Assembly (NCBI RefSeq): GCF_011044975.1
Contig: NZ_JAAKZV010000004.1
Location: 40,548-104,547 of the forward strand
Origin: Streptomyces coryli
GTDB taxonomy: Bacteria; Actinomycetota; Actinomycetes; Streptomycetales; Streptomycetaceae
Length of the DNA stretch: 64,000 nucleotides
Reading direction: 5' to 3'
Made by a program: the position numbers and the translations under genes. Under the pieces are notes generated by a model. The model was not told the origin of the DNA. It saw only the letters and a program-made list of their open reading frames with translations, and did not search any database. Each line of letters starts with the position of its first letter. Position 1 is the stretch's first letter. This document shows positions 31,206-57,122 of the stretch, in pieces.

Positions 31206-31217
31206 CAGGAGCAGCAC

Positions 31218-36430: not shown

Positions 36431-37474
36431 TCAGCCTCCGCCAGCACGCTCCATGGCATCCGTGCCCACCGTGCTCTCCCGCGCCATCACCTCGAATCCC
36501 GCGACCACCTGCCGCGCCGGGCGGTTGGCGCCCTCGATGCGTTCGGTGAGCATATTGACCGCCGTACGGGCGATGCCCTGCTTGTCCGGTGCGATGGAGG
36601 ACAGCGAGGGGGTCGACAGGCGCGCGCCCTCGACGTCGTCGACTCCGATGACGGCGATGTCGTCCGGCACGCGGACGCCGCGGGTGCGGAGCTCGCGCAG
36701 GGTGGCCAGCGCGGTGCGGTCGTTGAAGCAGAAGATGGCGTCCGGTGGGTCCGGCTGCGCCAGGAGGTGATCCACCACGGCCTCGGTGACGTCGTGCGGG
36801 GCGTTCGGCTGGTGGTGGGCGACCAGCGCGGGATCGGGCTCGATCCCGGCCGCGGTGAGGGCGGCGAGATAGCCGGCGTGCCGCCGTCGCGGCTCCGGCG
36901 GGGCGCCGGTGCGCTTGGTCAGCGGCGGGCCGATGGCGCCGATCCGCCGGCGGCCGAGGCCCACCAGGTGCTCGATGGCCGCGGCCACTGCCGCCTTGCT
37001 GTCGATCGCCACGCTGTCCGCGGACTGGACCTTGCGCTCGCCGAGCAGCACCAGCGGGGTGCGGTCGGCGCGGTTGCGCAGATACGTGGCGGACAGCGAC
37101 CACGGCTGCAGGATCATGCCGTCCAGCAGCTGACTGCGGAAACCCTCGGCGACGTGCTTCTCCCGTTCCAGATCGCCCTCGGTGCAGTCGATCAGCACGG
37201 TCAGGCCGCGGTCCTGGGCCTCCCTGACGATCAGGTGCGCGATCTCGGCGAAGTACGGATTCATGGTCGTCGGGACGGCCAGCGCGATGAGGCCGGTGCG
37301 GCCGCTGCGCAGGTTGCGCGCGGCGATGTTGGGCCGGTAGTTCAGCTCTGCCAGCGCCCGCTCCACCTTGCCCCGGGTCTCAGGCGTCAGATGCGGATAG
37401 CCATTGAGGACGTTGGACACGGTCTTCATGGACACGCCCGCAAGCTTGGCCACGTCTTTGATTGTTGCGCTCAT
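36431..37474 (-). CDS. LacI family regulator of the sulfatase/arabinofuranosidase locus (proposed)
   Basis: LacI-type regulator, 347 aa: an N-terminal HTH (TIKDVAKLAGVSMKTVSNVL) and a sugar-binding effector domain (GLIALAVPTTMNPYFAEIAH... IGVDDVEGARLSTPSLSSI). ATG 37474 is chosen because GGAGGAG lies seven bases upstream; a start six codons earlier is possible. It sits next to the secreted arabinofuranosidase and is the only DNA-binding gene in 36.4-55.6 kb, so it is the natural candidate to bind the TGTACAACG repeats in that locus. Confidence 0.88.
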   Translation of the reverse strand: MSATIKDVAKLAGVSMKTVSNVLNGYPHLTPETRGKVERALAELNYRPNIAARNLRSGRTGLIALAVPTTMNPYFAEIAHLIVREAQDRGLTVLIDCTEGDLEREKHVAEGFRSQLLDGMILQPWSLSATYLRNRADRTPLVLLGERKVQSADSVAIDSKAAVAAAIEHLVGLGRRRIGAIGPPLTKRTGAPPEPRRRHAGYLAALTAAGIEPDPALVAHHQPNAPHDVTEAVVDHLLAQPDPPDAIFCFNDRTALATLRELRTRGVRVPDDIAVIGVDDVEGARLSTPSLSSIAPDKQGIARTAVNMLTERIEGANRPARQVVAGFEVMARESTVGTDAMERAGGG

Positions 37475-37581
37475 TGCCGCACTCCTCCGCACCCCGCCGA
37501 ACAGGCGGGACCCCGCCGACTCGAAGCATTCTGCACTGGGAGGAGCGGGTCCGCACCGGCGGGCCCGCCCCCCCCGTCATC

Positions 37582-39456
37582 TCACACGGGCACCTCGAAC
37601 AGCGTGACGGAATGTGCGGGGAAGGTGTGCCGGCCACCGCCGCCGACATCCTTCTCGGCCGTGGTCACCTTGAGGGCGTCGGGGTCATCCGCGCTGTTGT
37701 AACTGGAGATCTCGGCCCCGTTGAGGGTGTGCACCTTCGCCTTGCCCCCGGCTCCCGGCGGCAGGGCGAGGCCGGCGGTCACGGCCTGCTCGCGGTCCCG
37801 GTTCAGTACGAGCAGCCGCACCGTGCCGTCCTCGGCGCGGGTGCTCAGCACCCGAAGGGCCGGATAGCCGCCGCCGGTGGCCTGCGGGTTGTTCTGCACC
37901 TCGCGCTGCACCGGCGTCGAACCGGCCAGCTTGCTGACCAGGCCGAGCATGCGGGCCCGTCCGGTGTCGGTGAAGTCGGGGGCGCCGCCGAAGAGCTCAC
38001 CGGCCACCGGCCGGTCGGCGTTGAGGTTCGAGGAGATGGCGAGGGGCACGCTGTGGTCGGCCATGCCGATGACGTGTCCGGCCTGGATGAGCACGTTGGT
38101 CATCGACCCGGCCCATCCCGCCGGGGCATCGTCCGGATTGCCGGAGTTGATCGTCCCGTACTCGCTCACCTCGAGGAACGGCCGCTTGTCGCCGCCCGGT
38201 CCGTACTGCTTGATGGCGGCCTCGAGCGCGTCGAGCTCCCCGTCCACGACCTTGTCCGCCTCCGGCATGAACCGGTCGTGGATCTCGGCGGAGGTGCCGG
38301 CCACCGCGCGGTTCAGATAGAGGTGCGGGCCGATGCAGTCGTACGCGTGCTCGCGGCCCATCAGCTGCACGAAGGCGGGTTTCTCCCAGGGTGAGCAGAC
38401 CGAGATCGACGGGTCGGCCTTCTTCATCGCCGCGTAGAAGTCGGTGAATCCGGCGTGCGGCCCTGAGTCGTAGTCGGCGCGGATCGGGGCGTCCGCGGGT
38501 GGGATACGGCCGTGTGTGCCGTCGCCGAAGCGCACCTGCCCGGTCTTGGCGTTCAGCTCGTACACGGCGGCGTCGGACGCGGCGGCACCGAGGTCGGCGA
38601 CCCGGCGCCAGGCCTCGCCGCCGACCCGTACCGTCGCGCTGCCGGGGACCACGGGCGGATACCAGACCTGGAATTCCTGCCCGGCCGAGCCGTCGCTCTT
38701 CCCGGCCTCCGGCCGGTGGTCGCACGCGGAGCCGAGCGGCTGGTCCTGCTGCCGCTGGGTGCCGCCGAAGGCGAACTGACGGAGCCGGGTGTCGAGGTTC
38801 TCGGCGCGCCAGTATGCCTGGTTGGGGAGGTACAGCTCGTTGCCGACCTCCCATACGCGGACGTCGTACGGGCCCTGGTGGCCGTTGTCCGCGCGTACCT
38901 TGGCCCAGTCGGTGCCGCCGTTGGGGTTGGCGCCGACCTCGGCGTTCATGTACTCGACGTAGTCGCCGGCGTCCCGCGGGGTCTGGGTGGTGCCGTTGGT
39001 CATGACGGTGGTGCGGGCGCCGATCGCCTCGACGAAGCGCTCGTTCTCGTCCGGCCCGTACCGGCTGTCCATCGGCTCGCCGCCCCCGCCGACGAAGCCG
39101 CCGCCGACCTGGCAACCGCGTTTGTGCTGCGGGCCGATGGCCCGCTTCCAGTCGTAGAGGTTGGCGACGGTGCCGCCGGGATAGCGGACGAGCTTCAGCC
39201 TGGTCTGCTTGGCGAGCTCGACCATGCGGGCCGACGGCTCGTTCCGCGCGGTGTCCCACATCCCGAGCCCGTCGCGCGGCCAGCGGTGATTCGCGCCGAC
39301 GATCTGATCGCGGACGGTGGCGGCGGTCGCCTCGGTGCCGACGGTGATCGTGACGTCGGCCGCTTCCGCGCGAGGGGCGGCGGGTGCCGCCTGGGCGATG
39401 GTGGTGAACACGAGCAAGCCGCCGAGTGCGGTGGCGAGCGCTGTACGTCGGTGCAT
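37582..39456 (-). CDS. Secreted GH51-like alpha-L-arabinofuranosidase
   Basis: Exported 624-aa glycoside hydrolase of clan GH-A. A signal peptide (1-23, TTIAQAA) is followed by a (beta/alpha)8 catalytic domain: KLVRYPGGTVANLYDW, the acid/base Glu in VWEVGNELYLP (about E207), and a probable nucleophile in FLEVSEYGTINSG. A roughly 80-residue insert lies between them. A beta-sandwich ending in HTFPAHSVTLFEVPV is shared with the cytoplasmic GH51 protein at 53892. The ATG has GGAGGGG. It is the only exported enzyme of the locus and would trim side chains outside the cell. Family assignment near GH51/GH79 is fairly sure; substrate is inferred. Confidence 0.78.
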   Translation of the reverse strand: MHRRTALATALGGLLVFTTIAQAAPAAPRAEAADVTITVGTEATAATVRDQIVGANHRWPRDGLGMWDTARNEPSARMVELAKQTRLKLVRYPGGTVANLYDWKRAIGPQHKRGCQVGGGFVGGGGEPMDSRYGPDENERFVEAIGARTTVMTNGTTQTPRDAGDYVEYMNAEVGANPNGGTDWAKVRADNGHQGPYDVRVWEVGNELYLPNQAYWRAENLDTRLRQFAFGGTQRQQDQPLGSACDHRPEAGKSDGSAGQEFQVWYPPVVPGSATVRVGGEAWRRVADLGAAASDAAVYELNAKTGQVRFGDGTHGRIPPADAPIRADYDSGPHAGFTDFYAAMKKADPSISVCSPWEKPAFVQLMGREHAYDCIGPHLYLNRAVAGTSAEIHDRFMPEADKVVDGELDALEAAIKQYGPGGDKRPFLEVSEYGTINSGNPDDAPAGWAGSMTNVLIQAGHVIGMADHSVPLAISSNLNADRPVAGELFGGAPDFTDTGRARMLGLVSKLAGSTPVQREVQNNPQATGGGYPALRVLSTRAEDGTVRLLVLNRDREQAVTAGLALPPGAGGKAKVHTLNGAEISSYNSADDPDALKVTTAEKDVGGGGRHTFPAHSVTLFEVPV

Positions 39457-39493
39457 CCGTCCCCTCCGGGGTAGCGGGTTCACTGCCGTTGTG

Positions 39494-39520
39494 TGTACAA
39501 CGCTGTGTACAACGTAATAG
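39494..39520 (+). promoter_or_regulatory. Shared operator/promoter A: two TGTACAACG repeats plus TAATAG
   Basis: TGTACAACG occurs at 39494-39502 and 39506-39514 (12-bp period) and runs directly into TAATAG (39515-39520), a -10-like box for the sulfatase at 39568. The -35 position (17 bp upstream) is TGTGTA, inside the repeat. It lies between the secreted arabinofuranosidase and this sulfatase. The same arrangement recurs at 43991 and 53827. Confidence 0.6.
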
Positions 39521-39567
39521 AACCGGGAGCAAGGCCAACTGCACACACGAGCCCAGGAGGTGGCGGG

Positions 39568-40983
39568 ATGCCCGGGAAGCGGCCCGCGGTGTTGTTGATC
39601 ACGGCGGATCAGCTGCGGCGGGATGCGCTGGGCTGTTACGGGGGCCGGGCGGTGGCGACGCCGCATCTGGACCGGCTGGCGGGGGAGGGGACGGTCTTCG
39701 ACCGGGCGTATACGGCGAGTCCGACCTGCCTGCCGAGCCGCAGCTCGCTGCTGACCGGGCGCTATCCGCGCAACCACGGGGCGTACAGCAACTTCCGGGA
39801 TGTGGCGTGGCTGTCTCCTGAACTGCCGAATCTGTACCGGGCGTTCGGGGAAGCGGGCTACGAGGTGGGCCATGTGGGCAAGTGCCACTTCGCGCCGGTC
39901 CCGTACGGGAATACGCGGCCGGACGCCACGCTCCCGTACGACGATTTCTTCGAGCACTACCGCAAGCTCGGCATCGATCACCTGGCGCTGCAGGACGGCA
40001 AACATGTCTCCGTGTGGTTCCGCGACGACTTCTCGGCGGAGCTGGAGGCGGCCGGGTACCTGGACGCGTACCGGAAGGCCATGTGGGACCAGGAGGCGCG
40101 GAAGGTCTTCACCTTCCCCGGCCCGGCGGAGTGGCACCCGGACGCGTGGGTGGGGCGCAAAGCGGTCGAGCTGATCACATCGCGTGCGACCGGGGACGGC
40201 CCGCTGTTCGCGTGGGTCTCGTTCAGCGGGCCGCATTTCCCGTTCGATCCGCCGGCGGAGTATCTGGAGCGGGTGGACGAGGCGGAGCTGGGTGAGCCGC
40301 GGATCGACCCCGAGGAGTGGACCGATCCCGCGCGCCTGCACTACCGCAGCTTCCACGGTCCGTCGAAGGGACGGGTGGAGGGCGGCGGCGACCGGCACAA
40401 CGAGCCGGAGTACTGGCGGCGGCTGCGCAAACACTACGCGGCGAATGTGGCGCTGATCGACGACCAGGTGGGCGCGGTGGTGGCCGCGGCGAAGGAGCGT
40501 TACGGCGACGACCTGGTGGTGGCCTTCACCTGCGACCACGGCGAGATGCTCGGCAACCACGGCTTCTGGGGCAAGCTGCGCTGCTATTACGACGACGTGC
40601 TGCGCGTGCCGCTGATCGTCCGCCGCCCGGGCGGCGTCGGGGCGGGGGAGCGGAGCGATCGCCTGACGAGTCTGGTCGACGTCTACCCGACGCTACGGGC
40701 CGCGGCAGGGCTGGCGCCGGACGCCGGCTGCGACGGCCGGCACGTGGACGAGACCGGACACGCGCACGTCTTCGCCGAGGGCGAGGGCTTCACGACCGTG
40801 ACAGACGGCCGCCACAAGCTGGCCACCGCCCGCGCCGAGGGCATGACGCACACGGAGCTGCACGACACGGCCTCCGACCCCGGCGAGGTCCACAACCTCG
40901 CCGGGCTGCCGGAGGCCGCCGCCGTACAGCGCGATCTGCAGGCGGCCACGCTAGACGCGCTGCTGCGCACCACGCTTCCGTGA
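39568..40983 (+). CDS. Type I sulfatase (cytoplasmic), paralogue 1
   Basis: Sulfate-ester hydrolase, 471 aa, alkaline-phosphatase fold. The formylglycine signature C-x-P-S-R is at Cys54 (SPTCLPSRSSLLTGR). Metal-binding blocks are LLITADQLRRD near the N-terminus and TCDHGEMLGNHG at about 325. The DQ rather than DD at the first metal site is typical of choline-sulfatase/heparan-sulfatase-like branches. There is no signal peptide. The ATG has AGGAGG. Very similar to the sulfatase at 44065. Its stop lies one base from the stop of the convergent binding-protein gene. Maturation needs a formylglycine-generating enzyme not found in this window. Confidence 0.9.
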   Translation: MPGKRPAVLLITADQLRRDALGCYGGRAVATPHLDRLAGEGTVFDRAYTASPTCLPSRSSLLTGRYPRNHGAYSNFRDVAWLSPELPNLYRAFGEAGYEVGHVGKCHFAPVPYGNTRPDATLPYDDFFEHYRKLGIDHLALQDGKHVSVWFRDDFSAELEAAGYLDAYRKAMWDQEARKVFTFPGPAEWHPDAWVGRKAVELITSRATGDGPLFAWVSFSGPHFPFDPPAEYLERVDEAELGEPRIDPEEWTDPARLHYRSFHGPSKGRVEGGGDRHNEPEYWRRLRKHYAANVALIDDQVGAVVAAAKERYGDDLVVAFTCDHGEMLGNHGFWGKLRCYYDDVLRVPLIVRRPGGVGAGERSDRLTSLVDVYPTLRAAAGLAPDAGCDGRHVDETGHAHVFAEGEGFTTVTDGRHKLATARAEGMTHTELHDTASDPGEVHNLAGLPEAAAVQRDLQAATLDALLRTTLP

Positions 40984-40984
40984 G

Positions 40985-42454
40985 CTACGCCTTCTCGTAC
41001 ATGTCCGCCGTGTAGTCCTTCCTCGGCTCCCAGTTGGGGAAGGCCCAGTCCTCGAGGTCCACCTTCGCGCCCTTCTTCTTCGCGGCGGCCAGCGCCTGCT
41101 CGCGGTTCTTCTCGCTGCGGTCGCTCAGCTTCTTGAGCTCGCCGCGCACGGAGGTCAGGTCGCCGCTGAACAGTCCCTGCACGACCTCCCCCAGCTGCGG
41201 CTGCATCTCCTTCTGCTCCGCCTGCACCATGGCCACGTCCGGGTTGCGCTTGGCGGGCGCAGGGGCCTTGAAGACCGCGTCCTGGAAGAGCCCGACGACC
41301 TTCTTGTATGCCGGGTGCACGTCGGCCTTGTCGATCGCGGAGAGGTCGAGCGGCGGCTGGTCCATCTTGGCCGCGAGCTTCACGTAGTGCTCCGGCATGG
41401 TGAAGTACTCGAGCAGCTTGCTCGCGTCCCGTACCCGCTTCGAATGCCCCGAGATGTAGAAGACACCCTCCTGCGGTGGCCGGTAGGCCGTCACCGGCTT
41501 GCCCTTGTCGGGCACCAGCATCGGTCCGACGCCCAGCTTGCCGGTGAACTGCTTCAGGTCCCGCGTCACGACGCCGGCGCACCACGGCCCGTCGAAGTAG
41601 TAGGCGGCGCTGCCGGCCGCCCAGCGTGCCCGCGCATCCTTGTCGACGAACGACTCGGTGCCGGGCACCAGAAGCTTGTCCTTCTTCAGCGACAGCCAGA
41701 ACTCCACGGCGTGGACGTACGCATCGTCGTGGTAGGCGAACTCCCCTGTCCGGTAGCGGATGCCGTCGAGGTTGTGCCCCTCGAAGCCGCCTGCCTGGGC
41801 CATGAACCCGATCTGCTCGCGAAGCCGCGGCGGCTGGCCGAGGGCGAGCATCCAGGCATACGCGTCTCCGCCGCCCTTGGTCCGCACGGCCAGGGCAGCC
41901 TTCCGGAACTCGTCGTACGTCTCGGGCGGGCTGTCCGGATCGAGGCCCGCCTGTTCCACGAGCTCCTTGTTGAACCAGGTGGCCGCCCAGTATTGACGCA
42001 GGTCGAACAGCGGGAAGCTGTACACCTTCCCGTCGATGACGTTGACTCCGTCGACGAACTCTTCCTTGGGCAGCCGGGCGCGCGCCTTGTCGCTCAGCTC
42101 CATCGGCTGGTACCAGCCGGCCTTGATCAGCGCCTGCAGCGGCTGCTGCAACCCGGCGTTGGTGTGCACATCCGGCAGCTGCTTGCTCTGCCGGGCCAGC
42201 TGCAGCGCCTGCCCCATCTTGCCGGTCTGCTGCGGCGTGTACTCCACCGGTATCCCGGTGTCCTTCTGGTACTGGGCGAAGACCTCCTTGTGCAGGTCCT
42301 GCAGCGGGTTGAAGTGGTCCCACCACTTCAGCGTGTTCCCGCCGCCGGCGGAGTTCTTGCCGGAGCCCGGTGCCGTATTGCACGCTCCCAGCGCGGTGGC
42401 CGCTCCCGCGGCTCCGATGGCGCTGAGCAGGGTGCGGCGGCTCAGTGCGGTCAT
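40985..42454 (-). CDS. Sugar ABC transporter substrate-binding lipoprotein (SBP family 1), paralogue 1
   Basis: Exported receptor of 489 aa for a carbohydrate importer. A Tat-like signal (LSRRTLLSAIGAAGAATALG) ends in the lipobox LGAC. The family-1 fold is indicated by WWDHFNPLQDLHKEVFAQYQ, FPLFDLRQYWAATWFNKELVEQAG and AAGSAAYYFDGPW. ATG 42454 overlaps the stop of the upstream sulfatase (ATGA) and has GGAGGAG. It is a paralogue of the protein at 45485; both end in DYTADMY-x-KA. The ligand is presumably a sulfated oligosaccharide, inferred from five sulfatase neighbours. Confidence 0.9.
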   Translation of the reverse strand: MTALSRRTLLSAIGAAGAATALGACNTAPGSGKNSAGGGNTLKWWDHFNPLQDLHKEVFAQYQKDTGIPVEYTPQQTGKMGQALQLARQSKQLPDVHTNAGLQQPLQALIKAGWYQPMELSDKARARLPKEEFVDGVNVIDGKVYSFPLFDLRQYWAATWFNKELVEQAGLDPDSPPETYDEFRKAALAVRTKGGGDAYAWMLALGQPPRLREQIGFMAQAGGFEGHNLDGIRYRTGEFAYHDDAYVHAVEFWLSLKKDKLLVPGTESFVDKDARARWAAGSAAYYFDGPWCAGVVTRDLKQFTGKLGVGPMLVPDKGKPVTAYRPPQEGVFYISGHSKRVRDASKLLEYFTMPEHYVKLAAKMDQPPLDLSAIDKADVHPAYKKVVGLFQDAVFKAPAPAKRNPDVAMVQAEQKEMQPQLGEVVQGLFSGDLTSVRGELKKLSDRSEKNREQALAAAKKKGAKVDLEDWAFPNWEPRKDYTADMYEKA

Positions 42455-43968
42455 TGCTCCTCCAGCTGATAGGCCTTGTCAGGGGTGAGGCCGGCGGCGA
42501 CTGTCCCGAAGACGTCGGCGACCTCCTCGGCGAGCAGCCGGCGCAGCTCGGCGCGGTGCGCCGCGTACTGCGGGCCGGCGGCGCGGTTGTGCTGCTCGTG
42601 GGGGTCGTCGGTGTGGTCGTAGAGCTCGTCGATGTCGCGCGAGCGGTAGATGTAGCGGAGCTGCGGGGTGCGGATGGAGAGGTTGAGGGCGTCCGTGGCG
42701 GGGTCCCAGGTGGCCGGATCCACGTACTGGCCCGCGGCGTCGGCCGACATCCCGTACAGCACGGACTCCGACGTCACATGCGCCCGCGTGGCGCGGGCGT
42801 GTGGGGCGCCCACCATGGCCGCCGCGGAGATCCCGTCGTCCGCTTCGTCCCAGGGCACCCCCGCCAGCTCGGCGAGGGTGGCGGCCACGTCCACGACGGA
42901 GACGGGATTGCTCGTACGGACGCCGCCGCCGGTCGCGTCCGGGTGGCGGATGAGCAGGGGGACGCGCAGCGCCTCCTCGTAGTGGAGGAGGTGTCCCTTC
43001 TCCATGAGGCCGTGGGCGCCCATCATGTCGCCGTGGTCGGAGGTGAAGACGACGATGGTGTGGTCCAGGTCGCCCGACCGGCGCAGGTGCTCGAGGACCG
43101 TCCCCACCTGCGTATCGATGAGGGCGCACAGGCCGAGATAGTGGGCGATGAGCTCGGTCCAGCCGTGCTCGTCGAGCCCGGCGTAGCGGTGCGCGAACCC
43201 CGAGTCGGCGACCTCGCGCGGCTTGCCGGCGCCGGCTGTCCCCAGGCCGGCGGGCAGCCGGATGCGTTCGCGGTCGATGATCCGGTCGTACGGCTCGGGC
43301 ACGATCATCGGGAAGTGCGGGGCGTTGTACGAGCAGACCGCCAGCCAGGGTTGGTCGTCGGGCCGCCGGTCGAGGGCTCGTAAGAACTCGCCGGTCTGCC
43401 AGGGCTCGAGGAAGTGCTCGTACGGGATGCGTGCCGTGCCGCGGTGCGGGGTCTGGCGAAGGGCGTGTGCGTCGGCCGCGGTGAGGTTCTCGATGTGGTC
43501 GTCCAGCAGGTCGTAGCCGAGGCCGGAGGCGTGGGCGCGGTACGGCTCGATGTAGCGGCCGCGGTCCTTGCCGTTCAGCACGGCCGGGATCGCGGCGGTG
43601 TCCGCGAAGCCCATGCGCTGCGGGGTGGTGCCCGGGACATGCCACTTGCCGCAGTAGAGCGTGTGGTAGCCGGCGGCTCGGAAGGCCTGGGCGAGTCCCC
43701 CGTCGGCGAGGTCGGGGCGGATGGCGCGCCAGTTGCCGAGGACGTGGTGGTGCCGTGGCATGCGGCCGGTCCACAGGCTGGTGCGGGACGGGCAGCACAG
43801 CGGGAAGGGCGTGTAGCAGGCGTCGAAGGACGTGGACTCCTGCGCGAGAGCGTCCAGATGAGAGGTGCGGGCGGCGGGATTTCCGGCGTGGCCGAGGGTG
43901 TCCCAGCGCTGCTCGTCGCTCATCAGAATCAGCACATTCGGGCGGGTGCGCGGCGCTGCAGCCGTCAT
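42451..43968 (-). CDS. Type I sulfatase (cytoplasmic)
   Basis: Sulfatase of 505 aa without signal peptide. NVLILMSDEQRWDTLGH is the first metal block; the signature at about Cys58 reads C-C-P-S-R (FPLCCPSRTSLWTGR); TSDHGDMMGAHG is the second metal block. GAGGAG precedes the ATG. First gene of a two-gene operon with the binding protein, divergent from the sulfatase at 44065 across operator B. It is not close to the 39568/44065 pair, so it probably removes a different sulfate. Confidence 0.9.
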   Translation of the reverse strand: MTAAAPRTRPNVLILMSDEQRWDTLGHAGNPAARTSHLDALAQESTSFDACYTPFPLCCPSRTSLWTGRMPRHHHVLGNWRAIRPDLADGGLAQAFRAAGYHTLYCGKWHVPGTTPQRMGFADTAAIPAVLNGKDRGRYIEPYRAHASGLGYDLLDDHIENLTAADAHALRQTPHRGTARIPYEHFLEPWQTGEFLRALDRRPDDQPWLAVCSYNAPHFPMIVPEPYDRIIDRERIRLPAGLGTAGAGKPREVADSGFAHRYAGLDEHGWTELIAHYLGLCALIDTQVGTVLEHLRRSGDLDHTIVVFTSDHGDMMGAHGLMEKGHLLHYEEALRVPLLIRHPDATGGGVRTSNPVSVVDVAATLAELAGVPWDEADDGISAAAMVGAPHARATRAHVTSESVLYGMSADAAGQYVDPATWDPATDALNLSIRTPQLRYIYRSRDIDELYDHTDDPHEQHNRAAGPQYAAHRAELRRLLAEEVADVFGTVAAGLTPDKAYQLEEQ

Positions 43969-43990
43969 GCAACTCCTCAGGCAGGAGGTG

Positions 43991-44017
43991 TTTACAGCGA
44001 TGTGTACAACGTAATAG
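43991..44017 (+). promoter_or_regulatory. Shared operator/promoter B: TTTACAGCG, TGTACAACG, TAATAG
   Basis: A degenerate repeat TTTACAGCG (43991-43999) and an exact TGTACAACG (44003-44011) at the 12-bp period lead directly into TAATAG (44012-44017). The downstream leader to the sulfatase ATG at 44065 is nearly the same as at site A, as expected from the duplication. Confidence 0.6.
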
Positions 44018-44064
44018 AACCGGTGGCAAGGCCAACTGCACACACGAGCCCAGGAGGTGGCGGG

Positions 44065-45483: not shown

Positions 45484-45484
45484 G

Positions 45485-46957: not shown

Positions 46958-46959
46958 GA

Positions 46960-48441: not shown

Positions 48442-50324
48442 GGGGCACCTGCGTCGCCGGCCGCGCGCGCGGCCGTCCGGCGGTGCGCGTCCACCGCCTC
48501 CGAGGGCAGCGCCCGGCTGGGCCGGGCCACGATCGCGCGGATCTCCTCTGGCGGCAGCTTCGGGCGGCGGTCCTCGGTCAGCAGGCCGTTCTTCTCCTGC
48601 CGGGTGTCGGTGAGCTGGGTGTAACAGAAGCCGGACACCCCGGGCGCGTCCAGGATCGCGCCGACCAGCGCGCCGAACTGCTCCCGCAGCTCCTCGGGGG
48701 TGCCGACGGTGCCGTAGCCGAACCACTTCTGGCCGGCCTCCGGCAGATACGACAGACCGCCGAACTCGGTGATCACCACCGGCTGTCCGTTCCGCTCCGT
48801 GGCCTCCAGGTGCACCTTCCAGCGGCCGGGCCCGGCGCCGTGCAGCGTCTCGGCGAGCGCGGCGGCGTCGCCGTACCGGCGGGTGAGGCTGGCCGGGTCC
48901 GGGGTGTAGTCGTGTACGCCCCAGATGTCGCTGACGGCGTGCTCCCAGCCCTCGTTGGAGAGCGCCGGGCGGGTCGGGTCGAGCGCCTTCGTGAGGTGGT
49001 AGAGCGCGGAGAGGTAGGCGCGCTGCTGTGCGGATGCCGTGAGCTGCGGTGTGCCCCAGCTCTCGTTCAGCGGCACCCAGGTGACGATGCAGGGGTGGCT
49101 GTGGTCGCGCCGCATGAGCGCCTGCCACTCCGTGGTCAGCCGGGTCACCGCCCGCTCGGAGAACTCGAAGGCGTTCGCCATCTCGCCCCACACCAGCAGC
49201 CCGAGCCGGTCGCACCAGTACAGGAACCGGGGGTCCTCGGCCTTCTGGTGGATGCGCGCGCCGGTGAAGCCCAGCTCCTTGATCAGCTCCACCTCGCGGC
49301 GCAGCGCCTCCTCGCCGGGCGCCGCCAGATGCGACTCCGGCCAGAAGCCCTGCTCCAGGGCCATCCGCAGGTAGTACGGGCGGCCGTTGAGCAGGAAGAA
49401 GCCGTCGCGATAGCCGGTGCTGCGCAGCCCCACATAGCCGGTCACCCGGTCCGCGGGCGCACTCGGAATCTCCTCCAGCACCACCTCGGCGTCGATCAGA
49501 GTCGGGTCCTCCGGCGACCAGAGCAGTCCGGGGCGGTCCGGGCCGCCGAGCGCCGGTATGTCGACCGTCATCCGGACCGTGTCCCGGTCGACGCGGCCGG
49601 ACCGCTCGGCGAGAACCTCGCCGTCGGGGCCGGTGAGGCGGACGCGCAGGGTGCGCGGCCCGTCCGGGTCGCGGCTCAGCTCCGCGTCCAGGACCACCGC
49701 TCCGGCCGCCAGGTCCGGGGTCCAGGCGAGCCGGGACAGGTGGACGGCGGGTACCCGCTCCAGCCAGACCGGCTGCCAGATGCCGGAGGTGCGGTCGTAG
49801 AAGACGGCGTGCGGCTCGGCCTTCCAGGTCTGCTTGCCGCGCGGCTGGGTCACGTCGCGCGGCCGGTCCTCGGCCCGTACGACAAGGGACTGCGCGTCCA
49901 GGGCCGGGTCGAGATCGTCGGTGATGTCGAGGGTGAACGGGCTCTGGCCGCCTTCGTGTTCGCCGCGGCGGCGGCCGTTCACCCACACGGTCGCCCGATA
50001 GTCGACGGCGCCGAAGTGCAGCAGCACCCGCTCGCCCGCCGCCGGGGCGGCCACCGGCACCGCGCGCTCGTACCACATCACCGGGTGGAAGCCCGGCTCG
50101 TGCACCCCGCTGAGCTTCGACTCCGGCGGGTACGGGACGACGATCGTGCGGTCGAACGGGTCGGGGCCGCCGGAGCCCACCTCGTACCAGCGCTGGTCCA
50201 CGCCGCGGTCGTCGTCGTCGAAGGCGAAGCGCCAGGTTCCGCCGAGATCGGTCCAGTTGTCGCGCTGGAACTGCGGCCTGGGGTGGAGGGCGGTGGCGGG
50301 CGAGTGGGGGTGCGCGTCGGTCAC
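48438..50324 (-). CDS. Glycoside hydrolase family 2 (beta-galactosidase/beta-glucuronidase type)
   Basis: Cytoplasmic 628-aa GH2 enzyme: an N-terminal sugar-binding jelly roll (NWTDLGGTWRFAFDD; FGAVDYRATVWVNGRRRGEH), an Ig-like domain, and a TIM barrel with the acid/base Glu in VPLNESWG and the nucleophile Glu in ITEFGGLSY. The length is typical of short GH2 glucuronidases/galactosidases. GTG 50324 has GAAGGGA. Upstream (50336-50359) are three tandem copies of GGATACGG/GGATGCGG. It is coupled to a sulfatase and so probably acts on imported desulfated oligosaccharides. The sugar cleaved cannot be told. Confidence 0.88.
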   Translation of the reverse strand: MTDAHPHSPATALHPRPQFQRDNWTDLGGTWRFAFDDDDRGVDQRWYEVGSGGPDPFDRTIVVPYPPESKLSGVHEPGFHPVMWYERAVPVAAPAAGERVLLHFGAVDYRATVWVNGRRRGEHEGGQSPFTLDITDDLDPALDAQSLVVRAEDRPRDVTQPRGKQTWKAEPHAVFYDRTSGIWQPVWLERVPAVHLSRLAWTPDLAAGAVVLDAELSRDPDGPRTLRVRLTGPDGEVLAERSGRVDRDTVRMTVDIPALGGPDRPGLLWSPEDPTLIDAEVVLEEIPSAPADRVTGYVGLRSTGYRDGFFLLNGRPYYLRMALEQGFWPESHLAAPGEEALRREVELIKELGFTGARIHQKAEDPRFLYWCDRLGLLVWGEMANAFEFSERAVTRLTTEWQALMRRDHSHPCIVTWVPLNESWGTPQLTASAQQRAYLSALYHLTKALDPTRPALSNEGWEHAVSDIWGVHDYTPDPASLTRRYGDAAALAETLHGAGPGRWKVHLEATERNGQPVVITEFGGLSYLPEAGQKWFGYGTVGTPEELREQFGALVGAILDAPGVSGFCYTQLTDTRQEKNGLLTEDRRPKLPPEEIRAIVARPSRALPSEAVDAHRRTAARAAGDAGAP

Positions 50325-50335
50325 GGTGTCCCTTC

Positions 50336-50359
50336 GGATACGGGGATACGGGGATGCGG
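50336..50359. repeat. Triple 8-bp tandem repeat upstream of the GH2 gene
   Basis: GGATACGG GGATACGG GGATGCGG sits between the sulfatase stop (50382) and the GH2 start. It could affect local translation or simply be a slippage product. Confidence 0.5.
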
Positions 50360-50381
50360 TCGGGCGGGAGGGGGCGGCGCG

Positions 50382-51845
50382 TCACCAGTACGCGTCGCGC
50401 GGCTGCGTCCGGTCCTCGGTGGCGACGAGGACGTCCAGCAGCCGCTCCTGCATCGCGGCACGGAGCTGGGCGTGACGGGGGTCGCCCCACAGGTTGACCA
50501 GCTCCTGCGGATCCGCCCGCAGGTCGTACAGCTCGCCGGTGCGCGCCCGGCCGGTGGCCGGGTCGCCGTGGTGGACGACGAGCTTGAGGTTGCCGCGGCG
50601 CAGCATGGTGGTGTGCACGGGCGGGTCGTACGGGTGGCCGCTGTTGCGGTACTCGCACAGCGCCCAGTCCCGCCAGTCGGTGGCCGCGCCCGCGTCGCCG
50701 CGGGCCAGCGGCAGCAGGCTTTCGCCCTGGCCGCGGGGGAGCGGCGGCAGGCCGGCGGCGTCCAGGAGGGTGGCCGTCAGATCGATCCACTGCACCAGCT
50801 CGCGGCGGCGCACCCCCGCCGGCAGCGTGCCCGGCAGCCGCAGCAGAAGCGGAACCCGGACGGCGCAGTCGTACATCATCGGGCCCTTGAGCATCAGCTG
50901 GTGGTCGCCGAGCATCTCGCCGTGGTCGCTGGTGAAAACGACCAGGGTGGAGTCGGTCAGCCCTTCCTCATCGAGGGTGTCGAGGATGCGGCCGACCTCG
51001 TCGTCGACGAGCGTGACCATGGCGTAGTACGCGGCCTTGGTCTCCTGCAGTTCCTCGGGGGTGTACGCGACGTAGCCCTTGGCATGGCCCCCGTAGGACT
51101 CCTTCGAGGCGTCGGTGTAGATGGGCGGCTTGGACTTGAGCTCGTCCGGTGTGGTGACCGGCCGGGACAGGGTGTCGGGGTCGTAGCGCCGGACGTACTC
51201 CTCGGGGGCGCCGAAGCCGTGGTGCGGGTCGAAGAAGTTGGCGATGAAGCAGAACGGCTTGTCGTGCTCCCGGCCGGTGCGCAGGAACTCCACCGTCTCG
51301 TCGCCGATCCAGTGGCTGTAGTGCGCCTCGGTCGGCATCGAGTCGAAGTCGACGTCCGTGTCCTTGGCCGTCGCCGCCTCGTACAGGCCGGGATGGCGGG
51401 CGCGCAGCCAGCGGTGGTAGGCGTTCTCGGACGAGCCCGGATACGGGTCGTGGGCCCAGCGGAAGACCCGCAGGCCGTCGTCGAGGCGCGGTTCGGTGCG
51501 GCCGCCGAAGCAGGCCGCCAGGTGCAGTTTGCCGACCAGGCCGCAGTCGTAGCCGGCGTCCGCCAGCTCCCGGGTGAACAGGCGCTCGTGGTCGGGGAGT
51601 TGGACGCCGTTGGCCCAGAGGCCGTGGCTGTGCACGTAGCGGCCGGTCATCAGCGAGCCGCGGGACGGGCCGCAGACCGGGCTCTGCACGTAGGCGTTCT
51701 CGAAGAGCACGCCCTGGGCGGCGAGGCGGTCGAGGTGGGGGGTGTGGATCTCCGGGTTGCCGTAGGCCTGGACGGCGTCGAAGCGCTGCTGGTCGGTGCA
51801 GATCAGCAGGATGTTCGGCGCGGCCTGCGCGGGTTGGGGGGTCAC
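50382..51845 (-). CDS. Type I sulfatase (cytoplasmic)
   Basis: Sulfatase of 487 aa without signal peptide. NILLICTDQQRFDAVQ is the first metal block; the signature C-G-P-S-R at about Cys58 is in SPVCGPSRGSLMTGR; TSDHGEMLGDHQ is the second block. The GTG start overlaps the stop of the MalG-type permease, so the enzyme is made together with the importer. This strongly suggests it acts on incoming sugar. Confidence 0.9.
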   Translation of the reverse strand: MTPQPAQAAPNILLICTDQQRFDAVQAYGNPEIHTPHLDRLAAQGVLFENAYVQSPVCGPSRGSLMTGRYVHSHGLWANGVQLPDHERLFTRELADAGYDCGLVGKLHLAACFGGRTEPRLDDGLRVFRWAHDPYPGSSENAYHRWLRARHPGLYEAATAKDTDVDFDSMPTEAHYSHWIGDETVEFLRTGREHDKPFCFIANFFDPHHGFGAPEEYVRRYDPDTLSRPVTTPDELKSKPPIYTDASKESYGGHAKGYVAYTPEELQETKAAYYAMVTLVDDEVGRILDTLDEEGLTDSTLVVFTSDHGEMLGDHQLMLKGPMMYDCAVRVPLLLRLPGTLPAGVRRRELVQWIDLTATLLDAAGLPPLPRGQGESLLPLARGDAGAATDWRDWALCEYRNSGHPYDPPVHTTMLRRGNLKLVVHHGDPATGRARTGELYDLRADPQELVNLWGDPRHAQLRAAMQERLLDVLVATEDRTQPRDAYW

Positions 51846-52774
51846 GATTTCACCGCTCCCGCGATGCCGTCGATGAACTGGCGCTGCATGAGGATGAAGA
51901 GGACGACCACCGGCAGCAGCGAGATCGTCGCGGCCGCCGCCATGCCCGACCAGTCGGTGGAGTTCTCGCCGACGAACGCCGTCATGCCGACGCTGAGCGT
52001 GCGCAGCTCGGGCCGGGAGAACGTGAACACCAGCGGCAGGAAGTAGGCGTTCCAGGTCGCCAGGAAGGTGGTCAGCACGACCGTGGCGGTCACCGGGCGG
52101 GCCATGGGGAGCATGACCTTGAAGAAGATGGTGAAGAACCCGGCGCCGTCGAGGATCGCCGCCTCCTGCAGCTCCTTCGGGATGGACCGGAAGTAGCCGG
52201 CGTACAGCAGGATGCCGACCACGTGCGCGCTGCCGCTGAGCGCGACGACCATGCCGGTGAGGGAGTTGAGCAGGCCGAGCTTCATGGAGATGTCGACGAC
52301 CGGGATGATCGTGTAGCCGGTCGGGGCGACCAGGGTGATCAGCAGGATCGCCATGATCAGCTTGCGGCCGCGGAAGGAGTAGCGGCCCAGGACATAGCCG
52401 GCCGTCGCGCAGCGCAGCACCACCAGGATGACCGTCGCGAAGGTGACGATCACCGTGTTGAGCATGTACTGGCCGAAGCCGGCGTCGTTCCAGGCGCGGC
52501 CGTAGTTCTCCCAGGCCGGGGAGTCGGGGATCAGGGAGAGGCCGGAGCCGAAGATCTCCAGCTGGGACTTCAGCGACGCGGCGACCATCCAGGCGAAGGG
52601 ATAGACCCACAGCAGACAGCCGCCCGCCATCAGGAGCGCCGCGGTCCACCAGGGCAGCCGGCGGAGTATCCAGGGCCAGGTCCAGCGGTTGCTGCGGGCC
52701 TGGTCCGTACGGGCCCGTGGCCGCCGCAGCATGCCGGTGCGGGTGGCCTCGGTCGGTTCGCGGGTGATGGTCAC
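51842..52774 (-). CDS. Carbohydrate ABC transporter permease, MalG type
   Basis: Inner-membrane permease of 310 aa. After a polar N-terminus come six predicted helices (first WWTAALLMAGGCLLWVYPF). The EAA loop is FRSIPKELQEAAILDGAGFFTIFFKVMLP. The start is a GTGA overlap with the MalF-type gene. There is no ATPase gene in the locus; Streptomyces sugar importers usually share the MsiK ATPase encoded elsewhere. Confidence 0.92.
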   Translation of the reverse strand: MTITREPTEATRTGMLRRPRARTDQARSNRWTWPWILRRLPWWTAALLMAGGCLLWVYPFAWMVAASLKSQLEIFGSGLSLIPDSPAWENYGRAWNDAGFGQYMLNTVIVTFATVILVVLRCATAGYVLGRYSFRGRKLIMAILLITLVAPTGYTIIPVVDISMKLGLLNSLTGMVVALSGSAHVVGILLYAGYFRSIPKELQEAAILDGAGFFTIFFKVMLPMARPVTATVVLTTFLATWNAYFLPLVFTFSRPELRTLSVGMTAFVGENSTDWSGMAAAATISLLPVVVLFILMQRQFIDGIAGAVKS

Positions 52775-53736
52775 TGTGCACCTCTGGCCTTCTGCGCCGC
52801 CCGGACGCCGAGGAGTTGGAGAGCGCCGACCACGCAGACGAAGAGCCCGAAGATCACGGCGGCCGCGGAGGCGAAGCCGAGCTGCGGGACGGTGGCGGCG
52901 AAGGCCCAGCGGTAGATGTAGATCTCCACGACTTCGGAGGAGTAGTAGGGCCCGCCGCCGGTCATCGTCTGCATCAGGTCGAAGACCTTCAGCGCGGACT
53001 CGAGCGACAGCAGCGTGATGATGATCAGGAAGGGCTTGAGCAGCGGCAGCGTGATGTGCCGCAGCAGCTGCCGGGGGCCGCAGCCGTCGATCCGCGCGGC
53101 CTCCAACACGTCGTCGGGGACGGTCTGCAGGGCGGCCAGCCAGTAGATCAGGGTGATCCCGAACCACTTCCAGATGTAGACCAGGCAGACGGTCCACAGC
53201 GAGGTCGAGGAGCCGCCGAGGAAGTTCACGCCCTCGGACAGGCCGAACTTGCGCAGGAGTTCATTCACCGGCCCGCTCGACGGGTCGAAGATGAACTGCA
53301 TGACGACGCCGACGATCGCGGTCGTGGTGACCACGGGCAGGAAGAGCGCGGTGCGGAAGAGCGTGCGCATCGGCATCTTCGGGGAGTTCAGCATGATCGC
53401 CGCGAACAGGGTCAGGAAGACCTTGAGCGGCACCACCACGAGCATGAACAGCATCGTGATCTTGAACGAGTTCCAGAACAGCGGGTCGGCGAAGACCTCT
53501 TGGTAGTTGCGCAGCCCGACGAACTTCTTCTCGCCCTCGAAGCCGTTCCACTCGACGAGCGAGTACCAGTAGCTCGCGACGACCGGGTAAACGGTGTAAA
53601 GCCCGTACAGCACGATCGTCGGGGTGAGGAAGCCCCAGATCCACAGCGTGACGCGCGATCGCCCGCGGTCCCGGGGTGCCGCCTCGGCCTTGCCCGGCGG
53701 CGGGGCTTTCTGCCTGCTCAGTGACGCGATGCTCAT
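52771..53736 (-). CDS. Carbohydrate ABC transporter permease, MalF type
   Basis: Inner-membrane permease of 321 aa. The first helix is WIWGFLTPTIVLYGLYTVYPV, and the EAA loop reads VPDDVLEAARIDGCGPRQLLRHITLPLLKP. First gene of the operon MalF-MalG-sulfatase, which starts from operator C. It forms the channel with the MalG-type protein for sugars delivered by one or both lipoprotein receptors. Confidence 0.92.
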   Translation of the reverse strand: MSIASLSRQKAPPPGKAEAAPRDRGRSRVTLWIWGFLTPTIVLYGLYTVYPVVASYWYSLVEWNGFEGEKKFVGLRNYQEVFADPLFWNSFKITMLFMLVVVPLKVFLTLFAAIMLNSPKMPMRTLFRTALFLPVVTTTAIVGVVMQFIFDPSSGPVNELLRKFGLSEGVNFLGGSSTSLWTVCLVYIWKWFGITLIYWLAALQTVPDDVLEAARIDGCGPRQLLRHITLPLLKPFLIIITLLSLESALKVFDLMQTMTGGGPYYSSEVVEIYIYRWAFAATVPQLGFASAAAVIFGLFVCVVGALQLLGVRAAQKARGAQ

Positions 53737-53826
53737 GGGCGCGCTCCAGGGTTGTCTCGTCCTCGACGGCCGGCGCCGGGTCAACCACGCGGGAACACCA
53801 CGGGGGTTGACGTCCACGGGCAGCAA

Positions 53827-53853
53827 GTATCACGTTGTCTACTACGTTGTACA
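53827..53853 (-). promoter_or_regulatory. Shared operator/promoter C: TGTACAACG, TAGACAACG, TGATAC
   Basis: On the minus strand TGTACAACG (53853-53845) and TAGACAACG (53841-53833) repeat at the 12-bp period and run into TGATAC (53832-53827), a -10-like box about 90 bp upstream of the MalF-type gene. Same layout as sites A and B. It also lies in front of the divergent GH51 gene. Confidence 0.6.
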
Positions 53854-53891
53854 AGCCTTGTGCAGCGGCCCCTAGGAGAGGCGGTCGGCGC

Positions 53892-55559
53892 GTGAGCCGG
53901 ATCCCGGAAGCCCATCCCGTACAAGCCGTGATCGAGGTCGACACCCGGCATCCGGCCGGTCGTATCGAGCGCGACATCTACGGCCATTTCCTGGAGTCGG
54001 CGTTCTTCGGGAACATCGAGGGCGGGGTCTTCGACGACGGGTCTCCGCTGTCCGACGGCGGACCCGGGGTGCGGGCCGGCTTCCGCCAGGATGTGCTGGC
54101 CCTCTGCCGCGAGCTGGGCATTCCCAACGTCCGCTGGCCCGGCGGCAACTTCACCTCCCCGTACCACTGGGAGGACGGCATCGGCGACCGCGACGCCCGG
54201 CCGCGGCGGCTGGAGCTGGCCTGGGGGAGCGAGGAGTCGAACCGCTTCGGCACCGACGAATTCCTCGCCTGGTGCGCGGACGTGGGCGCGGAGCCGTTCC
54301 TGGTGCACGGCTGCCGCAGCGTGGACGACGCGGTGCGCTGGGTCGAGTACACCAACTACGCGGGCGACACCGCCTACACCCGCCGCCGCAAGGACAACGG
54401 CCACCCGGACCCGTACCGCGTGCGCTACTGGGGCGTCGGCAACGAGCCGTACGGCCCCTGGCAGATGGGCCACCGCCCGGCGGCCGAATACGCGGCGGCG
54501 GCGCGCGAGCACGCCCGCTTCATGCGCCTGGTCGACCCGGAGATCAAGCTCGTGGCCTGCGGCAGCCCCTGGCAGCAGGAGGAGTGGACGCGCCCGGTGC
54601 TGCAGCAGACGGGCCGGCTGATCGACTATCTCTCGCTGCATCTGTACGGGGCCGCCACGCACTCGTACACAGGGCGGCATGGTGACGATGACTACGAGGC
54701 GGTGGTCGCCCAGCCGGTCTATTTCGAGCAGCGGATCGAGGAGTACGCGCATCTCGTCGCCGAGCTGTCGGCGGAGGCCGGGCTGGAGCGGCCGCCGGCG
54801 CTGGCGCTGGATGAGTGGAACATCCGCCATCTGGAGCCGGCCGAGTGGCCAGAGCCGTGCCCCGGACCCGACGGTGGCACGGGCGTGCGCGAGCTGCCGG
54901 AGGGTGCGCCGGCGGATGGAGCGCGGGGGCTACGGGTCAACCGCTACAGTCCCCGAACCCTCGCTGACGCCCTGTTCTACGCGGGTGTCTTCCACACGCT
55001 GCATCGGTCCAGCGCGCTGCCGGCGCCGGTGACGATGGCCAACACGGTGAACCTGGTGAACGCGAACGGACTGATCGTCGCCCGGCCGAACGGAGCGGTG
55101 AAGTCTGCCTCGTATCACGTGTGGGACCTGTACCAGAACCACACCGGACCGGTGGCGCTGCCGACGACGGTCGAGGGCCCGGCCCGCACCGCCGCCGTCC
55201 GCCAGGGCGACAATCGCGGACCCGGCGGCGACTTCGCCACCCGGCTCGGCGTCGTGCCGCACCTCGATGCGAGCGCCATGCTGTCCGCCGACGGCCGCCG
55301 CCTCCACGTCGCGGTCGTCAACCGCCATCGCGATGCCGCGGTGTCGGCGCGGGTCGTCCGCGACGGCGACCCGGGCGGTCTCCCGGCGGTGGCCGAGGTC
55401 CGCGACCTGGGCGTGGAGGTGGACGACATGCTGGCCGCGAACAGCCTGAGCGACCCGGACCGGGTGGCGGTGCGCCACCGACGAGCGGTGGAGACGCCGG
55501 GCGGCTGCTATGCCTTCCCGGCCCACTCGGTCACGGTGCTCGCCTTCGATCTGGACTGA
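53892..55559 (+). CDS. Cytoplasmic GH51 alpha-L-arabinofuranosidase
   Basis: Intracellular 555-aa GH51 enzyme, no signal peptide. RDIYGHFLESAFFGNIEGG and NVRWPGGNFTSPYHW are early family blocks. The acid/base Glu is in GVGNEPYG (about E185) and the nucleophile Glu in LALDEWNIRH (about E308). The C-terminal beta-sandwich ends PGGCYAFPAHSVTVLAFDL. GTG 53892 is preceded by TAGGAGAGG. It shares the operator-C region with the importer operon and would remove arabinofuranosyl (or similar) ends from imported oligosaccharides. Confidence 0.92.
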   Translation: MSRIPEAHPVQAVIEVDTRHPAGRIERDIYGHFLESAFFGNIEGGVFDDGSPLSDGGPGVRAGFRQDVLALCRELGIPNVRWPGGNFTSPYHWEDGIGDRDARPRRLELAWGSEESNRFGTDEFLAWCADVGAEPFLVHGCRSVDDAVRWVEYTNYAGDTAYTRRRKDNGHPDPYRVRYWGVGNEPYGPWQMGHRPAAEYAAAAREHARFMRLVDPEIKLVACGSPWQQEEWTRPVLQQTGRLIDYLSLHLYGAATHSYTGRHGDDDYEAVVAQPVYFEQRIEEYAHLVAELSAEAGLERPPALALDEWNIRHLEPAEWPEPCPGPDGGTGVRELPEGAPADGARGLRVNRYSPRTLADALFYAGVFHTLHRSSALPAPVTMANTVNLVNANGLIVARPNGAVKSASYHVWDLYQNHTGPVALPTTVEGPARTAAVRQGDNRGPGGDFATRLGVVPHLDASAMLSADGRRLHVAVVNRHRDAAVSARVVRDGDPGGLPAVAEVRDLGVEVDDMLAANSLSDPDRVAVRHRRAVETPGGCYAFPAHSVTVLAFDLD

Positions 55560-57035: not shown

Positions 57036-57122
57036 GGTGGCGGTGCGCCACGCCGGGCGGCTGCTACGCCTTTCCGGTCCACTCGGTCACGGTGCTCGTC
57101 TTTGATCTGAACTGAATCACGG
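57036..57122 (+). pseudogene. Decayed duplicate of the GH51 C-terminus
   Basis: The frame reads PGGCYAFPVHSVTVLVFDLN and stops at 57115. It matches the end of the GH51 enzyme (PGGCYAFPAHSVTVLAFDLD) and its flanking bases. A 17-bp deletion separates the preceding GGTGGCGGTGCGCCAC match from the rest. The 56937-57035 stretch before it shows no other gene. Confidence 0.75.

Follow-up and report, generated by a model that had tools for sequence, protein, structure and literature searches.

Most glycan sulfatases encoded in Bacteroidetes loci are periplasmic or exported enzymes. In Bacteroidetes-type PULs with S1 sulfatases, for example the one for use of sulfated AGP in Bacteroides plebeius (PMC8406133, as far as its accessible text goes), sulfatases, glycosidases, uptake and a regulator are clustered, as they are in the locus described here. 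In contrast to the B. plebeius type, our locus carries an ABC importer with two lipoprotein receptors and its sulfatases are predicted to be cytoplasmic. Import of sulfated sugars by ABC transporters and intracellular sulfatases are each already known, judging from the accessible parts of two reports (PMC6837340, PMC7326374). Streptobacillus moniliformis takes up sulfated GAG disaccharides unmodified by an ABC transporter with a solute-binding protein, a likeness to our locus; however, the glycan is a different one (PMC6837340), and in our locus the genes for importer, sulfatases and furanosidases are colinear. Bifidobacterium breve UCC2003, also a Gram-positive actinobacterium, has an intracellular sulfatase for GlcNAc-6-sulfate, but this is a mucin-derived monosaccharide and furanosidases are not mentioned in the accessible text (PMC7326374). 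Streptomyces JHA19 encodes a GH51 (ORF2125) acting on alpha-L-Araf and beta-D-Galf and a GH2 of the same group as ours, although that GH2 belongs to GH2_18 and bears a signal peptide, and the string 'sulfat' is absent from the accessible text of that paper (PMC4560423). New here are a shared 16-mer, synteny in other genera, affinity to GH2_19, duplication of a sulfatase–receptor pair (S1–SBP1) and several sulfatase orthologues without space for a signal peptide.

Gene content and proposed pathway

The locus lies in a 64-kb stretch of DNA, analysed as a whole and called the window below. Five formylglycine-type sulfatases (S1–S5), two lipoprotein receptors (SBP1, SBP2), a MalF/MalG pair, a GH2, a cytoplasmic GH51, a secreted GH51-like enzyme and a LacI regulator were confirmed. 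The overlaps by which the first-pass annotation had tied sulfatases to permease, receptor and GH2 were all re-found in the sequence: GTGA at 48438–48441 (GH2/S4) and 51842–51845 (MalG/S5), ATGA at 42451–42454 (S2/SBP1). Furthermore, the SBP2 start at 46957 lies 2 bp past the S4 stop at 46960. S1–SBP1 is a tandem copy of S3–SBP2, S1 and S3 being 88% identical. Both receptors, SBP1 (40985..42454, −; PF13416, 1e-21) and SBP2 (45485..46957, −; PF01547, 1e-16), belong to the SBP_bac_1/8 families and have Tat-like N-termini; the lipobox was detected by script in SBP2 and by eye (LGAC) in SBP1. The permease proteins MalG (51842..52774, −; 1e-15) and MalF (52771..53736, −; 1e-16) both match PF00528.

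We consider it probable that these genes form one LacI-controlled regulon for a sulfated polysaccharide with furanose sugars (alpha-L-arabinofuranose and/or beta-D-galactofuranose), of which the sequence itself shows the gene set, the protein motifs, the motif common to the promoters, the synteny, the absence of signal peptides and the group affinity of the GH2; the identity of the substrate and the order of steps we infer. Outside the cell an enzyme, for which the secreted GH51-like protein is a candidate, would trim the polymer, and SBP1 and SBP2 would bind the still-sulfated oligosaccharides and deliver them to the single MalF/MalG importer, powered by an ATPase presumably encoded elsewhere. 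Inside the cell, formylglycine sulfatases of as many as four kinds (S1/S3, S2, S4, S5) would strip sulfates at different positions, after which the GH2_19-type and GH51 exo-furanosidases would free the sugars. If true, Gram-positive bacteria would have a route for sulfated glycans that combines ABC import with several intracellular sulfatases, and four further actinomycete genera carry related sets. A clade of GH2 furanosidases would then also be linked with sulfated substrates, and candidate sulfatases would become available for positions on furanosides, a specificity absent from the literature consulted here.

Sulfatases and their predicted location

All five sulfatases match PF00884 (E 5e-46 to 1e-49, 158–170 bits, cut-off 25) and carry maturation motifs conforming to C-x-[PA]-[SA]-R: S1 CLPSR (39568..40983, +), S2 CCPSR (42451..43968, −), S3 CLPSR (44065..45483, +), S4 CVPAR (46960..48441, −) and S5 CGPSR (50382..51845, −). 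GKxH, a PH dipeptide, DHG[DE] and a downstream Lys, which we take to be further catalytic signatures of type I sulfatases (S1 family), are likewise present in each. The likely starts (S1 39568, S2 43968 (−), S3 44065, S4 48441 (−), S5 51845 (−)) are not those of the longest open reading frames. Maturation would be the task of a formylglycine-generating enzyme (FGE). None is encoded within the 64-kb window; a PF03781 protein is present in all six relatives examined, and the one of Phytoactinopolyspora scores as high as 388 bits with solved FGEs.

The first-pass annotation had called these five type I sulfatases without signal peptides and had named export as an observation that would speak against its reading. 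We looked for signal peptides in S1–S5 of the window by N-terminal hydropathy and saw none. Several orthologues of S2, S3 and S4 have their frame closed by a stop codon at most about 10 codons upstream of the core, with no room left for a signal peptide. The predicted location is based on hydropathy and these closed frames.

Enzymes for choline sulfate had been named as a second observation of this kind. The sulfatases could serve in scavenging, with small esters like aryl sulfates or choline sulfate as a source of sulfur or carbon, and generic arylsulfatase and choline-sulfatase models do match all five proteins. However, the scores stay far below the cut-offs (199–256 versus 481 for the arylsulfatase model; 160–218 bits versus 433.45 for the choline-sulfatase model TIGR03417, which none reaches), and choline-sulfatase identity was rejected for S1–S5 on these scores. 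Since the genes of the five enzymes also share a promoter motif with those of sugar receptors and glycosidases among which they lie, we regard scavenging as extremely improbable.

Some of the five might instead be phosphodiesterases or phosphonate monoester hydrolases (PMHs), acting for example on phospho-substituents of Galf-containing fungal or bacterial glycans. S5 is not separated from PMHs by fold alone, and the GH99 and GH125 genes found elsewhere in the 64-kb window would fit galactomannan; these genes, however, lie outside the three motif-bearing promoters. The NCBIfam model PehA (phosphoric/sulfuric ester hydrolase, PMH-like) scores S1–S5 at 140–220 bits against a cut-off of 900, and S2 and S3 are nearest to carbohydrate sulfatases, all of which makes phosphoesterases improbable.

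The nearest solved structure is the exo-2S-iota-carrageenan sulfatase 6PT4 for S2 (167 bits) and BT1918 of S1_46 (7OZ8, 165 bits) for S3, and S5 lies near S1_25 with 22–34% identity to the structures listed. As these relatives act on pyranosides, the sulfated glycan could be mainly pyranose (carrageenan-, porphyran-, ulvan- or glycosaminoglycan-like), with furanosidases that trim side chains or are passengers; the backbone of the sulfated arabinans of Cladophora, which contain beta-D-Galf, is likewise pyranose. But the identities, as computed for S5, are too low for transfer of specificity, and among the neighbourhood genes scanned there is no agarase, carrageenase or lyase family; the hydrolases recurring beside sulfatases are GH2_19-type and GH51. 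We therefore hold a mainly pyranose glycan to be unlikely.

Furanosidases and the candidate substrate

For the GH2 (48438..50324, −) the best PDB match is 7XYR (372 bits), followed by 9J6N (225), 7SF2 (221) and then a drop to 87; the best match of its predicted structure (model pLDDT only 68) is 7XYR as well. 7XYR is assigned to GH2_19, and is uncharacterised there, in the accessible text of PMC12243196; 'beta-glucuronidase' is its deposit title. 9J6N is a beta-D-galactofuranosidase of GH2_18. The closest relatives form the furanosidase group, and on this ground a generic beta-glucuronidase/galactosidase reading was rejected. The intact NE pair Asn420-Glu421, as well as Glu520 and Thr569, is conserved without exception (28 of 28), and Thr569, as read from alignments, appears to be the Thr that replaces the Trp of the −1 subsite, a trait of group III (PMC12243196, accessible text). 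The protein is thus best placed in the furanosidase group, closest to GH2_19, and is predicted to be a cytoplasmic exo-furanosidase. About 10% of GH2_19 are described as secreted (PMC12243196). In a tree of GH2s the window protein falls in a supported clade of six rows, each adjoining a sulfatase gene. A label test on this tree gave 5 changes versus 9.9 when shuffled (0/500), a contrast inflated by near-copies; 5 of the 37 rows, on contigs <9 kb, are in no group. Neighbouring sulfatases were identified by tblastn with the window proteins at >70 bits, a threshold at which distant ones could be missed in the 18 loci scored 'none'.

The GH51 without signal peptide (53892..55559, +; PF06964 2e-14, PF22848 9e-9) reaches 314 bits to the PDB GH51 3UG3 and 289 bits with the ArfA model, under the cut-off of 625, and is ArfA-like; it has the acid/base motif GNE at 183 and the nucleophile Glu in LDEWN at 306, as expected of GH51. 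The first-pass annotation had listed a cytoplasmic GH51 and a secreted GH51-like enzyme and had spoken of two arabinofuranosidases. The secreted enzyme (37582..39456, −; Tat-like N-terminus) does not qualify as a full GH51: it scores 22.0 against a cut-off of 22.2 for ASD1 (PF22848), and the best PDB GH51 alignments cover stretches of about 130–150 residues, part of the protein only. It carries GNE at 205 and VSEYG at 430 and is only a divergent, 'GH51-like' relative. A phage origin of its mid-protein insert was considered and dropped (NCBIfam baseplate model 52 bits versus a cut-off of 155.8; no PHROGs family).

Furanosides are indicated by both the GH2 and the GH51 and, less strongly, by the secreted protein. 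GH2_18/GH2_19 and GH51 have members active on beta-D-Galf as well as alpha-L-Araf (accessible parts of PMC12243196 and PMC4560423), and given the closeness of the GH2 to GH2_19, Galf and Araf are equally likely. Of the earlier proposal, an import locus with cytoplasmic sulfatases is supported, with an operator-like motif in common and conservation in other actinomycetes, whereas 'arabinan' does not hold as the sole option. Algal polymers of the Chaetomorpha type, with 5-linked alpha-L-Araf carrying 2- or 3-sulfate as a natural sulfated furanoside, or of the Cladophora type would fit. More tentatively, and with some doubt on our side, this may be a dedicated cytoplasmic pathway for sulfated furanosides, in which the sulfatases act on sulfated alpha-L-Araf/beta-D-Galf and the exo-enzyme to go with them comes from the GH2_19 clade flanked by sulfatases; candidates for the polymer are an algal glycan of Cladophorales type and a sulfated actinomycete Galf exopolysaccharide. 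A search of the open-licence PMC literature yielded no paper combining 'galactofuranosidase' with 'sulfatase'.

Promoter motif and conservation in other genomes

The 16-mer TGTACAACGTARTAGA (≤3 mismatches) has 3 matches in the 64 kb versus 0.06 expected, one in each of the three divergent promoters of the locus and none elsewhere. These putative operators lie between the secreted GH51-like gene and S1 (39494..39521, +; TGTACAACGTAATAGA plus an upstream repeat), between S2 and S3 (44003..44018, +) and between MalF and GH51 (53838..53853, −; TGTACAACGTAGTAGA). A LacI-family gene (36431..37492, −; PF00356 8e-19, PF13377 4e-37) and a palindromic motif common to the promoters, as expected of a LacI regulon, are thus both present; LacI may bind the putative operators and would hold the three promoter regions repressed until a sugar inducer appears.

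The order MalF-MalG-S5-GH2-S4 is conserved in Actinopolymorpha and Phytoactinopolyspora (loci L085 and L002) and partially in Jiangella and Microlunatus (L090 and L092); locus-like gene sets exist in four other actinomycete genera. LacI orthologues share 64% (L002) and 67% (L085) identity. Palindromes with ≤3 mismatches to TGTACNACGTNGTACA, weaker than the window motif, are found at equivalent places. Phytoactinopolyspora, Jiangella and Microlunatus have them in the S2|S3, S2 or S3 promoter; Actinopolymorpha, and again Phytoactinopolyspora, before MalF. A pattern-based scan of genome contigs, which reaches close relatives only, returned no Streptomyces among its matches.

Relatives of S3 occur in four other actinomycete genera, Paenibacillus and Chloroflexi. 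In 10 Chloroflexi loci the sulfatase follows a MalF-MalG pair and there is no match to GH2 or GH51, and S3 by itself is therefore no marker of a furanoside substrate. Near a haloarchaeal relative of S5 lie ABC transporter genes, a gene for an arabinofuranosidase and two GH2-like proteins. This distribution bears on the idea that the substrate is the actinomycetes' own sulfated Galf exopolysaccharide, like that predicted for the Actinoplanes wps-1 cluster: according to the accessible text of PMC13390465, Actinoplanes missouriensis is predicted to have a sulfated polysaccharide made up of galactofuranose and glucose units, and our locus is present in several actinomycetes. However, the wps-1 polymer is itself a prediction, and related parts in Paenibacillus, Chloroflexi and a haloarchaeon suggest a more widespread substrate, so that we give an exopolysaccharide of this kind a slim chance.

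With the GH125 protein, a draw across the phylum at an overly strict limit gave 0 of 396. A search of plasmid DNA revealed no near copy of the locus, with short matches only, in 5 records. Next to the locus lies a kinase gene whose matches, at 64%, are plasmid genes of Streptomyces.

Gene content, duplication and promoter motifs

Analysis of ORFs with actinomycete codon bias, motif search and domain scans confirmed the gene list of the first-pass annotation, and the gene overlaps it had claimed are present in the sequence. The minus strand carries, from 53736 downwards, the permease genes MalF and MalG, the sulfatase S5, GH2, the sulfatase S4 and the lipoprotein sugar receptor SBP2, then S2, the second receptor SBP1, the secreted GH51-like enzyme (37582..39456) and the LacI regulator (36431..37492); S1, S3 and the cytoplasmic GH51 (53892..55559) lie on the plus strand. 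Gene starts were picked by eye using conserved cores and upstream sequence. All catalytic signatures checked were present in each of the five sulfatases. S1 and S3 share 88% identity and the other pairs 32–40%, hence the locus contains four distinct sulfatase types and one copy.

The block 39491–~42450 repeats at 43988–~46957 with an offset of 4.5 kb. DNA identity per 150-column bin is 80–96% in promoter and sulfatase and 51–74% in the receptor part, with 54% protein identity between SBP1 and SBP2. This pattern suggests that a promoter-sulfatase-receptor unit was copied and its receptors then diverged, or that the sulfatase half was homogenised later.

The motif TGTACAACGTARTAGA occurs in three exact copies in the window, in the intergenic regions GH51-like/S1, S2/S3 and MalF/GH51, which could serve transcription of every locus gene but LacI. 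With up to three mismatches allowed, these remained the only matches in the 64,000-base window, against an expectation of 0.06; none of 100 shuffles reached three. Of 99 loci searched for the core 11-mer of this motif, four contained it. The four overlap or lie close together in the Phytoactinopolyspora genome, where the 11-mer is found at the promoters of GH2, S2/S3 and MalF/receptor. In Jiangella, the palindrome TGTACNACGTNGTACA (≤3 mismatches) is present at three promoters, those of the GH51-like gene (L003:8705), S3 (L003:9929) and S2 (L091:3679). It was also observed in the S2/S3 region of Microlunatus (L004:9971) and directly upstream of MalF in Actinopolymorpha (L085:6475). Single three-mismatch matches are weak, since shuffles yield 0.05–0.45 matches per source. 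Matches away from promoters were found at 24851 in the window, within a Phytoactinopolyspora receptor gene (L002:12482), at L004:608 and at L085:6039; both matches in the locus L086 are distant from its S3/GH51 pair, and none was found in L089 or L090.

Conservation and sulfatase location

S3 was used as query in a pattern-based scan of 84,980 species genomes, which yielded 50 loci. The best four (62–69%) belong to Actinopolymorpha, Phytoactinopolyspora, Jiangella and Microlunatus, the next 15 (51–57%) to Paenibacillus, other Bacillota and Chloroflexi, and the remainder reach 26–35%. The order MalF-MalG-S5-GH2-S4 is colinear in the Actinopolymorpha and Phytoactinopolyspora loci (L085, L002). 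What is left of S5 in Jiangella is a match of 84 residues between MalG and GH2 (L090:8695-8946), probably a decayed copy, and S4 was not found in the Microlunatus locus L092. Proteins of ~1400 aa of the GH2 family, distinct from the GH2_19-type gene, adjoin the locus in Jiangella (L090:2431-6633) and Microlunatus (L092:7255-11499). Ten Chloroflexi MAGs (L006, L007, L009-L013, L016, L018 and L019) carry MalF-MalG-sulfatase (S3-like) sets, in L018 with an additional receptor gene upstream; judged by gene content, such a set would be a minimal import-and-desulfate unit.

Among 33 GH2-bearing loci, 10 had a sulfatase match and 18 had none, the contig being too short to judge in five. The GH2 tree (37 rows) places the window in a six-row clade (support 95/96) in which a sulfatase gene adjoins every GH2. 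The sulfatase-neighbour label requires 5 changes on this tree. Shuffled labels averaged 9.9, and none of 500 shuffles gave so few; near-copies inflate this test. Near two Deinococcus GH2 genes (54–55%) no annotated sulfatase was found; the D. aetherius neighbourhood includes a sugar ABC importer. The locus-bearing genomes G001-G004 encode 20, 26, 62 and 10 sulfatases, two Paenibacillus genomes 54 and 50, and G375, G349 and G285, drawn for their GH2 relatives, 0, 1 and 2; 81 of 149 drawn Actinomycetota were without a sulfatase at E 1e-25. FGE-type genes (PF03781) are present in all six relatives, and one was compared against solved FGEs. A haloarchaeal plasmid carries a relative of S5 (42%) in the same neighbourhood as a gene annotated as arabinofuranosidase, several for ABC transporters and those for two LamG proteins that align to the window GH2 at 29–31%.

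N-terminal hydropathy maxima of the sulfatases range from 0.3 to 1.4, those of the receptors and secreted enzyme from 1.6 to 2.2. In several orthologues a stop lies at most ~10 codons upstream of the core (S4 in L090; S3 in L092, L008 and L014; S2 in L002 and L017). The remaining ones have longer upstream open frames of mostly low hydropathy; some Chloroflexi S3 frames, with the MalG gene directly upstream, reach 1.1–1.7. For S5 the closest stop is 17 codons off (L089) and the other frames stay at or below 1.06. As far as N-terminal sequences can tell, these sulfatases are thus likely to be cytoplasmic as a family. The principle is not new: import of a sulfated disaccharide by an ABC transporter is already known (excerpt of PMC6837340), as is a Gram-positive actinobacterium with a sulfatase inside the cell (excerpt of PMC7326374). 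Several cytoplasmic sulfatases with two receptors, GH2_19 and GH51 under one promoter motif were not found in the searches made of the open-licence literature.

Glycosidases and candidate substrates

Among solved structures the window GH2 matched 7XYR best (372 bits), followed by 9J6N (a Streptomyces beta-D-galactofuranosidase; 225), 7SF2 (221) and a next match at 87 bits; a structure model (pLDDT 68) again matched 7XYR best. Asn420-Glu421, Glu520 and Thr569 are invariant across 28 aligned relatives. A Streptomyces GH51 is active on Araf and Galf alike, according to an excerpt of PMC4560423. GH2 and GH51 thus point to furanosides, the GH51-like protein more weakly, without distinction between Araf and Galf; the arabinan-type substrate proposed in the first-pass annotation is one option among these.

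Candidate substrates are algal sulfated furanosides, described jointly in excerpts of PMC7550628, PMC5694217 and PMC9695659: 5-linked alpha-L-Araf sulfated on C-2 or C-3 in Chaetomorpha linum, a Cladophorales polymer (apparently of C. rupestris) whose Galf is 6-linked and/or 6-sulfated, and sulfated arabinans with beta-D-Galf side chains in Cladophora falklandica and Codium; in freshwater C. surera Galf is only minor. A sulfated Galf-containing exopolysaccharide predicted for Actinoplanes (excerpt of PMC13390465) is a further candidate.

An insert in the GH51-like protein (residues 211-332; window 38461-38826) resembles a baseplate-assembly model at 52 bits, below cut-off, and no PHROGs match was found for it. 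Downstream of the locus, beyond genes for an Rrf2-type regulator and a dehydrogenase, an 83-bp stretch (57040-57122) shares 88% identity with the 3′ end of the cytoplasmic GH51 gene (21 residues, 86%); it is perhaps a remnant of a second GH51 copy or a trace left by an insertion.

Genes beside the locus

Two multidomain proteins, GSDH-PKD-CBM6 and ThuA-CBM6-GH99, are encoded at 28374-33380, and a ThuA-GSDH-PKD-CBM6 protein lies close to the Jiangella sulfatase block (L091:12175-15279). Beside the locus, 34453-36414 encodes a Ser/Thr protein kinase fused to a SBP_bac_3-like solute-binding domain (25.6 bits versus a cut-off of 26.4), with relatives on Streptomyces plasmids.
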